A DNA stretch of 64,000 nucleotides. It comes from Brachyspira sp. SAP_772. GTDB lineage: Bacteria > Spirochaetota > Brachyspiria > Brachyspirales > Brachyspiraceae. The notes under the pieces are model-generated. The model was given only the letters and a program-made list of their open reading frames with translations, did not search any database and was not told the DNA's origin. Positions 1,754-7,255 of this stretch are shown one piece after another (positions within the stretch are counted from its first letter, which is position 1; every line of letters begins with the position of its first letter). Where the stretch lies: the NCBI RefSeq assembly GCF_009755885.1, contig NZ_VYIX01000001.1:663219-727218 (forward strand). Direction: 5' to 3'. Both the position numbers and the translations under genes were made by a program.

Positions 1754-4480
1754 ATGTATTTATTTTTTATTTTTATTATTATTATAAACATAATCTCTTG
1801 TTCATCAAAAAATGTTACTGTTGGAGAGATAAATGCAGTTTATAATAAAAAAGAAGATTCATATACTATAACTTTTCCTGAATATAATAAAATATATCCT
1901 AAATACATAGAATTAGAAATGAATAAAAAAATAAAAAATGGTATTATGTTAAGTTATAATATAGAAACTGATAATATACCAACCCTACTAGATATATGTG
2001 TTGAAGAAGATAATATAAAAAAAAGATATTCTATTGTAAACCCAGTTGTTAATCAAACTATTAATGTAGAATTATACGCCACAAATTTTACTCCGTATTT
2101 ATCTAATGAAAAAATAAAAAATATAGAAATAAGCTTAGAGAGTGTTGGAAGTTATGATACAAAAGAAAAAGTTACAATTTCTCTAAATGAAAAAATAAAT
2201 GAATATAAAAACATTAATACAATGGTATTAGTTTTACCTGAAAGCGGTCATATAGCAAGAAGCAATCCGCCTTTTTTTATGATTAATAAAAAATTGAATT
2301 TGTTTAGAGTGTATTTATCACAAGACTTATCTTTTAATAATTCATATGAATATACAATTAGAAATAATAATTTTTTTGATATTACAAATAAACTAGATTA
2401 TGGAAAATGGTATATTGCTTTAGATGAAAATGGAGATACTAATTTAAGAAAAATATATCACTTTTTTATAACCGATAAAACTAAAGATATTAATACTATA
2501 ACAAATACAAGAGCTAATACTCAAAGACCTTTTATTTTTACAGATGCTGCCACTCTAAATTTGTTAAATAATATATATAATTCTAAAAAAATGCCTCAAT
2601 CAGCATTTTTAAGAAATTTTAATTATTTTAAGCTATACACTTCAAACAATGTAGGTAAATGGTATTTAGATAATATATCATACACTAATGAAAATAATAA
2701 TAAAATATATTTTGCTAGTCTTCCATCACATATAATGCTTATGAGCTTAAGAGCTTATTTAGAAAAAGAGAATAACACATTTCAGTATGATATAAAACAA
2801 ATAATAAAAGATATTACACTTCTAAATGAAAACAGCATAGAAAACTTTAATAATATAGAAGCATCATACATATTAGCAAATTCCTTATTAATGCCTTTTG
2901 ATATATTATACAATGAATTATCATCTGAAGAGATAGTGTTAATAAAACAGAAATTTATAGATTATGGAAACATATTATATAAATACATAATTAATAATCC
3001 TTCATTATATAGAGATGCTAACAACATAAAATATATAACAACATTAGGTTTAATATCATTAAATATGCTAAATGAAAACCTATATCAAGAAGAAGTGAGA
3101 AGCTGGTATTTATTTTCTCTTAAATATATAAACTCTGTAATATTTAGCATGTTTGAAGATGATGGAAGTTTAAAAGCTTCTTTGGATAATTCTTTTGAAA
3201 TTATTTTTAATATTTTTATATATGCTAATGCTTTAAAAAATGCTGGTATTGTTAATGCTTTTGAATATGAATCATTTAGAAATATAGGCAAATATTTATC
3301 TATTGTAGGATACCCATCAGGATATACTTTACCTGTTGGATACACATTGATAGACGGCAGAAGTAAAATGCGTTTTGATAATGGTGCAAGAAGTGCAATT
3401 ATGGAGCTATTAAGCAAAACATATAACAATGCACTTTATAAAAACTATTCTGTATTTGGACAAAGCGAAGCTATTGATATAAAGTATTTGCCTTATATGC
3501 TTTTATGGAATAATCATTCTATAAAAGATGATGCTATTAGTGCTTTAAATAACGACTATCAAAGTGCCTATTTTAGAAATATAGAAACTGCGATATACAA
3601 TAGAGATATAAAATCATTAAGCAGTCAATATTTAGGAGTATATGCTAAAGGTTATAATGCATATAATTCCTATGGTCTTAATCATAATGACAGAATGAGT
3701 TTTGTTTATTATAATTATGGGGACAGCATAATAGATGAACTTGGATATTTTTATTATAATGATGATAAAGAAATATTTGCATATGCTGATTTTCATAATA
3801 CTATAATAATATCTGATACCACTAATGAATATAGAATAGAAGAAAAACCATCAAGTTTTTCAAAAATAATAAGCACAACTAATAACAATAAACTATTTTT
3901 TGTTAAAGCTAAAGCAAATAATGTTTATACTTATAAAACAACACTCAGAAACTTTGAAAGAACATTTTATTATTTAAAACCAAATGTATTAGTAATAAAA
4001 GAAGATATAGAAGCCTTGCCTAATATAAATAATGAAAACTATATTAACGGCTATAAATATAAATGGAATATAAATAGCAAACTTCCTATTAGTAATAATA
4101 ATGATGGTTTTGTTATTGATGGTAAATATTCTACAAGTTATATAAAACTTTTATCAGAAGATAAATTAAACTATGAAGTATCAGAAACTAATATAGGAAA
4201 TCAAAAGTTATATACAGCAAAAGTTTCAACTATAGATAATACAAAAAGATTTAGTCCTTGGGTAATGGTTATAACAATGCCTAAAAATAATGTGGATATA
4301 AAAGAACGAAGAAATATTATTAATACAAATATATCAATAAATAGTTTTAATTATACAAATTTATCATTTAAAGCAGGATATAAAGACTATAATATAATTT
4401 ATCAATCTTCTTCTACAAATAATAATGATAAAATAGTATATACAGAAAATAGAGAAAGTGTTATAATAAGCCCGCATTAA
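1754..4480 (+). CDS. Heparinase II/III-family polysaccharide lyase-like lipoprotein
   Basis: A 908-residue protein with a short hydrophobic leader ending in a lipobox (NIISC, Cys about residue 16), so probably a lipid-anchored envelope protein. The N-terminal 200 or so residues are beta-rich, the middle (about 260-560) is helical as in the alpha/alpha toroid of this superfamily, and the C-terminal half is a beta-sandwich. The clearest family signature is near residues 635-690: NHNDRMSFVYYNYG, then D-x-LGYF and later FHNTIIIS, matching the heparinase II/III pattern of a His/Asn-rich segment, 'yyG...iD.G' and 'HNT'. The family cleaves uronic-acid polysaccharides such as heparin, chondroitin or alginate by beta-elimination. 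It lies just upstream of amino-sugar phosphate genes, which fits use of host glycosaminoglycans or mucin. The exact substrate is not readable. Confidence 0.7.
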   Translation: MYLFFIFIIIINIISCSSKNVTVGEINAVYNKKEDSYTITFPEYNKIYPKYIELEMNKKIKNGIMLSYNIETDNIPTLLDICVEEDNIKKRYSIVNPVVNQTINVELYATNFTPYLSNEKIKNIEISLESVGSYDTKEKVTISLNEKINEYKNINTMVLVLPESGHIARSNPPFFMINKKLNLFRVYLSQDLSFNNSYEYTIRNNNFFDITNKLDYGKWYIALDENGDTNLRKIYHFFITDKTKDINTITNTRANTQRPFIFTDAATLNLLNNIYNSKKMPQSAFLRNFNYFKLYTSNNVGKWYLDNISYTNENNNKIYFASLPSHIMLMSLRAYLEKENNTFQYDIKQIIKDITLLNENSIENFNNIEASYILANSLLMPFDILYNELSSEEIVLIKQKFIDYGNILYKYIINNPSLYRDANNIKYITTLGLISLNMLNENLYQEEVRSWYLFSLKYINSVIFSMFEDDGSLKASLDNSFEIIFNIFIYANALKNAGIVNAFEYESFRNIGKYLSIVGYPSGYTLPVGYTLIDGRSKMRFDNGARSAIMELLSKTYNNALYKNYSVFGQSEAIDIKYLPYMLLWNNHSIKDDAISALNNDYQSAYFRNIETAIYNRDIKSLSSQYLGVYAKGYNAYNSYGLNHNDRMSFVYYNYGDSIIDELGYFYYNDDKEIFAYADFHNTIIISDTTNEYRIEEKPSSFSKIISTTNNNKLFFVKAKANNVYTYKTTLRNFERTFYYLKPNVLVIKEDIEALPNINNENYINGYKYKWNINSKLPISNNNDGFVIDGKYSTSYIKLLSEDKLNYEVSETNIGNQKLYTAKVSTIDNTKRFSPWVMVITMPKNNVDIKERRNIINTNISINSFNYTNLSFKAGYKDYNIIYQSSSTNNNDKIVYTENRESVIISPH

Positions 4481-4513: not shown

Positions 4514-5281
4514 ATGAATATATATATAGCAGATTCTTATAAGGATTATACATATTTCACAGCAAATCATATTTTGCATTTTTTGGAAAAGAAACAAAAA
4601 ATGAAAGAAAAACTCTATATTTCCGTATCCAGCGAATATGATACAAAAGATATTTATAAAGCAATAATAGAAAACGTAAAAAATTATAATATTAATTTTA
4701 AAAATATATTTATATTTCAGCAATCAGAATATGTTGGATTATCTCAAGATGATAAAAATAGTAAAGCATATTTTTTAAAAGAGAACTTACTTTCAAAATT
4801 AGATATCCCCAAAAAAAATCAATTTTTATTTGACGGAAGTAAAGATGAAAGTCAAATGGACAATCAATTAGAAATAATAAAAAAAATAGGCAGATTCGAT
4901 GTTGTATGGTATTCACTAACCCCAGATTCTACTTCAGCAGGAAATGAGAGAATGTCATCATTATCATCATTATTTAGATTAAAAACATTAAGCGAACATT
5001 CCATAAAAGCAATTAAAACAAAATTTGAAAAAGAAGTGCCAACTATGGTATTTAGTATGGGAATGGGCATTATAGATATAGTTGATACAATTTTACTCAC
5101 ATCATCTGGTATAGAAAATTCTTGCTCTCTTAGAGATTGCCTAGAATGCGGTATAAGTAACTCTTCGCCTTTAAGCAAATTGCAAAAACATAGTGATGTT
5201 ACTGTAATAGCAGATTATGAATCATCTTTGAGATTATCAAGTCAAACAGTATCAATGAAGATAAAACAAAAATTATTTTAA
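4514..5281 (+). CDS. NagB-like protein with altered catalytic residues
   Basis: A 255-residue protein with the overall layout of glucosamine-6-phosphate deaminase. SEYVGLSQDD matches the NagB 'DEYxGLxxDH' segment, the stretch ending in FRLKTL matches '(G.DGHIAFNEPxSS)..R.KTL', and the C-terminal part matches 'VEG.......LQ.H....V.D......VK'. Key residues differ. By eye alignment the Asp of DEY (D72 in E. coli) is Ser and the catalytic His (H143) is Thr, while the D141 and E148 equivalents seem kept. It may be a sugar-phosphate binding or regulatory relative rather than an active deaminase. It is preceded by a TTGAGG Shine-Dalgarno and followed after 9 bp by the NagB/NagA fusion, which suggests the two work as a pair. 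Confidence 0.65.
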   Translation: MNIYIADSYKDYTYFTANHILHFLEKKQKMKEKLYISVSSEYDTKDIYKAIIENVKNYNINFKNIFIFQQSEYVGLSQDDKNSKAYFLKENLLSKLDIPKKNQFLFDGSKDESQMDNQLEIIKKIGRFDVVWYSLTPDSTSAGNERMSSLSSLFRLKTLSEHSIKAIKTKFEKEVPTMVFSMGMGIIDIVDTILLTSSGIENSCSLRDCLECGISNSSPLSKLQKHSDVTVIADYESSLRLSSQTVSMKIKQKLF

Positions 5282-5290
5282 GGAGGATAT

Positions 5291-7255
5291 ATGAGAATAA
5301 TTATAACTAATGAAAGCGTTTATGAATGGGCAGCATATTATACTGTAAAATGTATATTAGATTATTCTGACAGAAAAAAGCCTTTTGTATTGTCTTTTCC
5401 TTTAAGATATGTAGATAAAGCTTATTATGACAAACTATTATCTTTTTATAATGATAATATAGTATCATTTAAAAATATACATATAGTCTCTTCTGGTGAA
5501 TATATAGACTCAGACATATCACAAAACTATTTAGAAGAAAACTTTTTAAAATACATAGACATTCCTAAAGAAAATGTGCACTTATTTAACAGTAAAGTTA
5601 CAGACAGAAAAAAAGAAGCAAGGAGAATGTCAAACATAATAAAAAAACTAGGAAACATAACATTACTAATAGACAATTTAGCAGAAGATGGAAGTTTTTT
5701 ACTTAATACTCCAAGTTCATCATTAGAAGGAAGTGTGAGGGATAAAAAGATAAGTGAGATAATTAGAAGCTATGAGGCAAAAAAATTCAATATGCCTGTA
5801 GAAATGTTTCCGAGAGAAGGATTTACTCTTGGATTTGAAGAGGCTTTTAATGCAAGATATGTGCTTGTTATGGCTAATGGTTATGATGTATCTGATGCAT
5901 TGTCTCATTGTGTTGAAGGAGCAATAAGTCAGTTCTACCCTACTTCTGTTTTACAGGAACATAAAAAACTTATAATTGTAGCAGATGAAGAGTCAAGCAG
6001 CGATTTAAAAGTAAAAACTTATAAATATGCTAAGAGCTTAGAGAGTAAGAGCCTTCATCCTAAAGAGCTTATTAAAGGGCTTTATAAATCCTATTATGCT
6101 CTTACAAACATTAGAATATTTGATGGAGAGAAGTTTATAGATGGGCATTGTATAATAATAGAAAACAATATTATAAAAAGCGTAGAGAAAGAAATAGATG
6201 TTGATGCTGTAATTACAAGAATAGATTTGGGAGGAAAAATAGTAGCTCCCGGATATATAGATTTGCAAGTTAATGGCATAGGAGGCTATGATATTAACTC
6301 TACTCCAACAGTTGATACTTTAAAAAATATGAATGAAGTTTGCCAGAGATATGGCTGTACTTCTTATTTGCCTACAGTAATTACAAACGGTGATGAATAT
6401 ATGTTAAAGATTATAGACCTATTTAACAGAATAGAAGATTTATCTGTTATAGGTGTACTTGGCATACATTTTGAAGGTCCTTATATATCTCATGAAAAAC
6501 GAGGTATTCATAATGATAAGTTTATAAGAGAAGCAGATATGAATATGATAAAAAAGATTAATGCTTCAAAATGTGTTATGGTAACATTAGCTCCAGAGAT
6601 GGTAGACGGTAAAGTAATTGAGGCATTTGCTAAAGCTGGAAAGGTGGTATCTGTAGGACACACTAACGGTACTTACAGTGAAATAAAAGAGAAAATCCCT
6701 TATGGAATAACTTTTGCTACTCACTTATTTAATGCTATGCGTCCTTGGGGTTCTAGAGAGCCCGGCGCTGTGGGTGCTGTGCTTGAAACTAAGGATATGT
6801 ATGCTGGTTTAATATGTGATGGGGTGCATTGTGATTTTGCTTCTGTGGAGCTTGCTTACAAATTAAAGACAGGGCACATTTGTATTGTAACGGATGCTAT
6901 AGCTCCTGCCGCTGCTCCAGAGATAAAAGAATATAACTGGGCTGGCAAAAAGATACATAGAGATGGAAACAGACTTATAGATGATAATGGTACTTTAGGT
7001 GGGGCTTCTATTACTATGAGTCAGTCTGTAAGAAATATTGTTAATCAAGTTGGTGCTACAGTTGAGGAGGCTTTAAAGATGGCTTCGCTTTATCCTGCTC
7101 AGGTTATGGGTATAGATGATAAATATGGAAGGATAAAAGAGGGATATATTGCTGATTTAGTTATATTAGATGAAAAGTTAGTTGTAAAAGGTGTAGTATT
7201 TAAGGGTAATTATAAAGAATATAATTATGACTATGAATGGGAAAGTAATGTATAA
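5291..7255 (+). CDS. nagA: Fusion of a degenerate NagB domain and N-acetylglucosamine-6-phosphate deacetylase
   Basis: A 654-residue two-domain protein behind a strong AGGAGG site. Residues 1-255 are NagB-like (LEENFLKYIDIPKENVHLF, later CVEGAISQF and LKVKTYKYA), but 'DEY' is GEY and the DGHIAFNEP loop reads DGSFLLNTP, so the catalytic His and Glu are lost. Residues 270-654 form a full amidohydrolase-fold NagA: APGYIDLQVNG near 320, HFEGPYIS near 393, VGHTNG near 457, ATHLFNAM near 476 and the catalytic Asp in TDAIA at about 535. NagA removes acetate from GlcNAc-6-phosphate in the cytoplasm. NagA alone is about 380 residues, so the extra 255 are a true fusion. No canonical NagB lies in the window, so deamination would rely on another locus or on these divergent domains. 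Confidence 0.85.
   Translation: MRIIITNESVYEWAAYYTVKCILDYSDRKKPFVLSFPLRYVDKAYYDKLLSFYNDNIVSFKNIHIVSSGEYIDSDISQNYLEENFLKYIDIPKENVHLFNSKVTDRKKEARRMSNIIKKLGNITLLIDNLAEDGSFLLNTPSSSLEGSVRDKKISEIIRSYEAKKFNMPVEMFPREGFTLGFEEAFNARYVLVMANGYDVSDALSHCVEGAISQFYPTSVLQEHKKLIIVADEESSSDLKVKTYKYAKSLESKSLHPKELIKGLYKSYYALTNIRIFDGEKFIDGHCIIIENNIIKSVEKEIDVDAVITRIDLGGKIVAPGYIDLQVNGIGGYDINSTPTVDTLKNMNEVCQRYGCTSYLPTVITNGDEYMLKIIDLFNRIEDLSVIGVLGIHFEGPYISHEKRGIHNDKFIREADMNMIKKINASKCVMVTLAPEMVDGKVIEAFAKAGKVVSVGHTNGTYSEIKEKIPYGITFATHLFNAMRPWGSREPGAVGAVLETKDMYAGLICDGVHCDFASVELAYKLKTGHICIVTDAIAPAAAPEIKEYNWAGKKIHRDGNRLIDDNGTLGGASITMSQSVRNIVNQVGATVEEALKMASLYPAQVMGIDDKYGRIKEGYIADLVILDEKLVVKGVVFKGNYKEYNYDYEWESNV

Follow-up and report, generated by a model that had tools for sequence, protein, structure and literature searches.

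The only NagA found in the genome of Brachyspira sp. SAP_772 carries at its N-terminus a NagB-like domain (P2N) in which the deaminase site has been lost, and a second, free-standing NagB-like protein of the same kind (P1) is encoded directly upstream of the fusion (P2). From the pattern of residues lost and kept, we propose that these dead NagB domains may have been kept to regulate NagA, as a module that senses GlcNAc6P and oligomerises, a reading to which we assign a probability of about 0.5.

A pseudo-deaminase gene and a fusion to NagA

The locus lies on contig C1 of the 3.04-Mb genome, within the 64,000-nucleotide stretch that was analysed as a whole (the window). P1 and P2 are on the same strand with a gap of 9 bp. 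A preliminary description of this DNA had spoken of a tandem of degenerate domains attached to a deacetylase: the second unit is indeed fused, but the first is encoded separately and ends at a stop codon of its own. The nearest named relatives are B. pilosicoli strains, 97% identical over the first 290 residues of the fusion. The parts of the locus are as follows, with residues in E. coli NagB numbering where they are called catalytic or allosteric.

1754..4480, + strand: gene 5' of P1, predicted lipoprotein of 908 aa with a heparinase II/III C-terminal domain
4514..5281, + strand: P1, stand-alone NagB-like pseudo-deaminase of 255 aa (open reading frame; TIGR00502 below cut-off)
4718..4732, + strand: P1 'QQSEY', Ser71 in place of catalytic Asp72 (alignment)
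4925..4948, + strand: P1 'DSTSAGNE', Thr140 in place of catalytic His143, equivalents of Asp141 and Glu148 retained (alignment)
4955..4987, + strand: P1 'SSLSSLFRLKT', kept face-A allosteric residues, equivalents of Ser151, Ser152, Arg158, Lys160 and Thr161 (alignment, conservation)
5282..5286, + strand: Shine-Dalgarno sequence GGAGG of P2, which sets Met1 of P2 at the E. coli position
5291..7255, + strand: P2, NagB-like pseudo-domain and NagA in one protein of 654 aa (open reading frame, profile matches)
5291..6052, + strand: P2N, NagB-like pseudo-deaminase domain of P2, residues 1-254 (TIGR00502; V. cholerae NagB)
5495..5503, + strand: P2 'GEY', Gly69 in place of catalytic Asp72 (Gly in 41/41)
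5687..5710, + strand: P2 'DGSFLLNT', Ser135 for His143 and Thr140 for Glu148 (alignment)
5717..5746, + strand: P2 'SSLEGSVRDK', kept allosteric residues, equivalents of Ser151, Ser152, Arg158 and Lys160 (alignment, conservation)
6026..6028, + strand: P2 Tyr246, equivalent of allosteric Tyr254 (Tyr in 41/41)
6053..6100, + strand: conserved interdomain linker of P2 (SLHPKELIKGLYKSYYA)
6092..7252, + strand: NagA domain of P2, metal/catalytic residues Glu395, His457, His478 and Asp535 (profile match, motifs)

The lipoprotein gene ends 33 bp before P1, is syntenic in Brachyspira and in a second Brachyspiraceae genus, and is a probable operon partner of P1-P2; it may tie the operon to the degradation of polysaccharides. 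Further upstream (137-1744) lies a 535-aa protein of tandem coiled-coil-like repeats (TDKKDKE...SKLIK-LESKLK) without a Pfam match. An Rfam search of the window returned no RNA element.

The nagB profile TIGR00502 matches P1 (124.7 bits) and residues 1-251 of P2 (148.4 bits) over nearly its full length, in both cases under the cut-off of 236.9, and P2N matches V. cholerae NagB by sequence (E=7e-39). The AF2 model of P1 (pLDDT 86.6) superimposes on NagB structures with a TM of about 0.82-0.89, its best PDB matches being mostly hexameric NagBs. The model of full-length P2 is weak (pLDDT 55, pTM 0.41, shallow alignment) and was left out for domain geometry, so that the domains of P2 are assigned by sequence. 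P1, by its model, and P2N, by sequence, are thus NagB-fold domains. The NagA part had been called complete, and so it is: residues 268-640 of P2 match TIGR00221 over its full length with 353.5 bits (cut-off 225.65), and the metal and catalytic motifs are intact in 24/24 full-length P2 proteins. The best solved relative is V. cholerae 3EGJ, and P2 differs from the NagA family in the added pseudo-NagB domain and the conserved linker.

Some of these elements belong to kinds that are already known, namely pseudoenzyme regulators, NagB-fold sensors and NagB-LmbE fusions. The latter (PRK02122/NF002557) likewise join a NagB-like domain to an amino-sugar deacetylase-type domain, but LmbE is unrelated to NagA, the C-terminus of P2 is NagA and not the LmbE domain by which PRK02122 is defined, and in two examples, recognised by eye from their motifs, the NagB part retains both Asp72 and His143. 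In the CggR/SorC effector-binding domains (2OKG, 3BXE), which match P1 weakly, the NagB-like fold is reused as a sugar-phosphate sensor, although attached to a DNA-binding domain and with a different ligand site. Among the titles and abstracts that our literature search covered, none dealt with a pseudoenzyme of the NagB family, a fusion of NagB to NagA or the biochemistry of the Brachyspira protein.

The rest of the GlcNAc pathway is encoded elsewhere in the genome. A search for a further NagA found none. A different contig carries a complete class II NagB (NLDEY, GVGPNGHIAFNEP) beside an mtlD-like gene, which answers the search for a true nagB proposed in the preliminary description and rules out a genome without any NagB. 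Together with a GlcNAc-specific PTS IIBC (NagE) and NagA, this enzyme covers import, deacetylation and deamination of GlcNAc, and the degenerate copies are extra. A Brachyspira proteome paper lists NagA and NagB peptides, its NagB entry (D8IEE0) possibly being any NagB-type gene. In a B. catarrhinii-type genome (G006; L136:488-2566) the active NagB and the MtlD-like enzyme share one open frame with a Lys/Glu/Asn-rich linker, whereas in other genomes the two genes are adjacent and separate. Three Brevinema-type genomes have extra stand-alone NagA-like genes (G129:C133, G089:C7, G111:C80, G111:C1), 36-39% identical to the fusion.

Fate of the catalytic and allosteric residues

We compared 37 P1 and 41 P2N sequences with E. 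coli NagB, using a reference identical to 1CD5, for which the Catalytic Site Atlas lists His143, Glu148, Asp141 and Asp72 (PMC3234256). Asp72 is gone from 37/37 P1 and 41/41 P2N across Brachyspiraceae and Brevinema; P1 has Ser, Thr or Phe in its place (Gly in Brevinema), and P2N has Gly throughout, in both lineages. No P1 and no Brachyspiraceae P2N has His143, which in this family is replaced by Thr/Ile in P1 and by Ser/Thr in P2. Glu148 is Thr in Brachyspiraceae P2 and is retained in Brachyspira P1, and Asp141 is retained in Brachyspira P1 and P2. The absence of the DEY Asp and of the catalytic His, already read from both units of the single stretch, therefore extends to the whole alignment for Asp72, and to all P1 and the Brachyspiraceae P2N for His143. 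Because the Glu and Tyr of DEY are still in register and the neighbourhood of position 143 contains no His, these residues have been replaced, and the idea that they are displaced but still present is ruled out.

The damage goes further than the preliminary description had noticed: in Brachyspiraceae P1 and P2N the Thr41-Gly-Gly-Thr44 loop is lost and Arg172 and Lys208 are usually lost too, which we take to be the substrate-phosphate site of E. coli NagB. The entropy of former active-site positions tends to lie above that of the rest of the protein in Brachyspiraceae P1, and in P2N their conservation is only average (p=0.59). As judged from the alignments, it is well supported that P1 and P2N are pseudoenzymes whose deaminase site has been lost. 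Brevinema P2N retains His143, Glu148, Asp141 and Lys208 and shares Gly72 with Brachyspiraceae, so that Asp72 was probably the first to go, with erosion of the remaining site following in Brachyspiraceae. The Brevinema P1 and P2 pass the TIGR00502 cut-off (247.6 and 288.1 bits, run on locus L083) despite having Gly for Asp72, and automatic annotation would likely name them active deaminases.

The allosteric site has fared differently. E. coli NagB is activated by GlcNAc6P bound in a cleft between subunits, to which one face contributes Ser151, Arg158 and Lys160 and the other Tyr254 and the amino group of the N-terminus (PMC4281351, PMC4008608). Every P2N retains Met1, Ser151, Ser152, Arg158, Lys160 and Tyr254. 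P1 keeps Ser151, Ser152 (one Ala), Arg158 and Lys160, as well as Met1 (a GTG start or a gap in some Brevinema). Thr161, presumably also of the allosteric site, is kept by 37/37 P1 and lost by 41/41 P2, and Tyr254 shows the opposite. P1 and P2N resemble the hexameric, GlcNAc6P-activated class I NagBs (E. coli 1DEA/1CD5, V. cholerae 4R7T, B. burgdorferi 3HN6) in fold, length, start position and these allosteric residues, and differ from them in the lost catalytic and substrate-phosphate residues and in the fusion of one copy to NagA.

The sites are few, and P1 and P2N share a history and are not independent; read with this in mind, P2N keeps 5/5 allosteric positions among those conserved in class I NagB, against 1/8 active-site positions (Fisher p=0.005) and 40/91 other conserved positions (p=0.02), and P1 keeps 4/5 against 2/8 (p=0.09). 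Met1, being only a start codon, was left out of these five-position counts. In the true NagB the pattern is reversed, with 0/5 allosteric and 7/8 active-site positions kept, the single change (Asp141 to Asn) being common to B. subtilis NagB. A local control within segment 137-170 gives the same picture: Ser151, Ser152, Arg158 and Lys160 are kept 4/4 in both proteins, compared with 5/15 (P1, p=0.03) and 4/15 (P2N, p=0.02) of the other class-I-conserved residues. Across Brachyspira and Brevinema, 4/5 face-A positions of P1 and 6/7 allosteric positions of P2N (Met1 included) are invariant, above expectation (p=4e-4 each), whereas active-site positions are not, and P1 has no invariant one.

Positions 158 and 160 are His and Val in the non-allosteric, monomeric NagBs of B. 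subtilis and S. mutans, whose structures are known. Four other spirochaete class II NagBs also keep Ser151, Ser152, Arg158 and Lys160, and these four residues are therefore not exclusive to proven allosteric enzymes. Tyr121 and Glu148, which appear on one paper's allosteric list, are lost in Brachyspiraceae and in P2, respectively. Moreover, the allosteric residues sit at the subunit interface and may be retained for structure alone.

Distribution and selection

P2 occurs in the sampled Brachyspira genomes (in one it is cut by the contig end) and in 1/2 genomes of the second Brachyspiraceae genus, mostly accompanied by P1; both are also present in four Brevinema-type genomes, from another class. 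B. catarrhinii and one other species have no P1, and in Brachyspira sp. G79 and one further genome (G013) the P1 gene is interrupted, with P2 intact in each of them, and no broken P2 was seen in the sampled genomes. P1 is dispensable and P2 is not, and this natural loss or breakage in four species excludes an obligate P1-P2 complex. A linker-based scan of 84,980 species, which fusions with another linker would escape, found fusions only in Brachyspira, its relatives and Brevinema. Matches in Fusobacterium and Bacteroidales (34-35% identity, ending at residue 261-265) look like ordinary NagB.

P1 (97/84) and P2N (96/93) each form a clade of their own, and both fall on the class I side of the tree (100/98); some branches are long and the placement within class I is tentative. 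Since each clade holds both Brachyspiraceae and Brevinema, the duplication predates the split of these lineages, or the two genes moved together. Within Brachyspira the median dN/dS rises from 0.04 in P2N through 0.05 in the NagA part and 0.10 in P1 to 0.13 in the true NagB (0.18 for close pairs, with few sequences). P2N is thus under stronger purifying selection than its own NagA or the true NagB. In one Brevinema locus (L082:4519-12888) a PTS IIA gene on the opposite strand is followed by P1, P2 and ptsI, with a glucose/GlcNAc-type PTS IIBC some way beyond; the position of P1-P2 directly before ptsI is consistent with a coupling to sugar-phosphate entry.

A proposed regulatory module for NagA

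GlcNAc6P is the substrate of NagA. The known ligand of the retained pocket is therefore the substrate of the very enzyme to which the pocket is fused, and a regulatory domain that senses the substrate and oligomerises is the most economical reading of the domain identities, the losses, the retained residues, the selection, the sole NagA and the separate active-type NagB. P1 and P2N would descend from a hexameric, GlcNAc6P-activated class I NagB, P1 being a second, free-standing dead copy of similar age to P2N, and both would have lost the deaminase site and kept the inter-subunit GlcNAc6P site. GlcNAc6P arriving through the PTS would bind there, and a conformational change of the NagB type could then tune the assembly or activity of NagA. 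P1 may join the same oligomer as P2 and modulate NagA; the complementary loss of Thr161 in all P2N and of Tyr254 in all P1 suggests a composite site, in which Thr161 of P1 would complement Tyr254 of P2. Deamination itself would fall to the separate class II NagB, which lacks an allosteric site. Taken to its full extent, this would mean that the catalysis and the allostery of one family have been split between genes, with an unregulated class II NagB deaminating and the dead class I NagBs keeping only the GlcNAc6P sensor and gating NagA as a mixed P1/P2N oligomer, whose only complete site would lie between face A of P1 and face NC of P2. We consider this extended version rather unlikely.

The main rival is a pure scaffold. 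The dead domains might only oligomerise NagA, or hold it close to the true NagB or to PTS proteins for channelling, with no ligand sensed and the retained residues being part of the interface structure. P2 keeps a NagB sequence of the hexameric type, also in the region of the C-terminal helix, purifying selection is strong over the whole P2N domain and not just its pocket, and the four motif residues persist in other class II NagBs. Nonetheless, the ligand residues are unchanged while other class-I-conserved residues of the same segment have changed, and P2 also keeps Tyr254 and an un-extended Met1. We give a scaffold a clearly lower probability than the sensor. An allosteric or scaffolding role was one of two options raised in the preliminary description, and it is much the better one given the retained allosteric residues and active-site positions that are average at most, although regulation as such is only inferred.

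The other option, a new reaction, finds little support. The former P2N active site may have been remodelled to bind a new ligand or to carry out a new reaction with an amino-sugar phosphate, as could be read from its invariant Arg42, Gly72, Asp141, Thr148 and Val208 in Brachyspiraceae and from His143, Glu148, Asp141 and Lys208 in Brevinema. With the average conservation of these positions in P2N, their tendency to vary more in P1 and the absence of Asp72 everywhere, we find this improbable. It is less probable still that P1 and P2N, together or with the true NagB, build working deaminase sites: Asp141 and Glu148 in Brachyspira P1 and the His143/Asp141/Glu148 set in Brevinema P2N speak for it, yet Asp72 is absent from every P1 and P2N, in Brachyspira both units have in addition lost His143, the phosphate loop and Arg172, the active site of E. 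coli NagB is contained in one subunit, and the genome has a complete NagB. Equally far-fetched is that the copies are decaying relics heading for loss, as the loss or interruption of P1 in four species might suggest, given their dN/dS, clades that both span Brachyspira and Brevinema and the lack of broken P2, for which this idea is already disfavoured.

One practical consequence regards annotation, in which P1, P2N and the related Brevinema proteins are easily labelled as deaminases. Since NagB is a textbook allosteric enzyme, ligands and mutations that are already known allow a direct test of the sensor idea. The feature concerns the sole NagA found in this genome, and the genus comprises both pathogens and commensals of the gut. 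If the proposal is true, it would provide a clear natural case in which an enzyme has been reduced to its allosteric site and placed, as a regulator, on the enzyme that acts just before it in the pathway, where the molecule sensed would be the substrate of the enzyme regulated.
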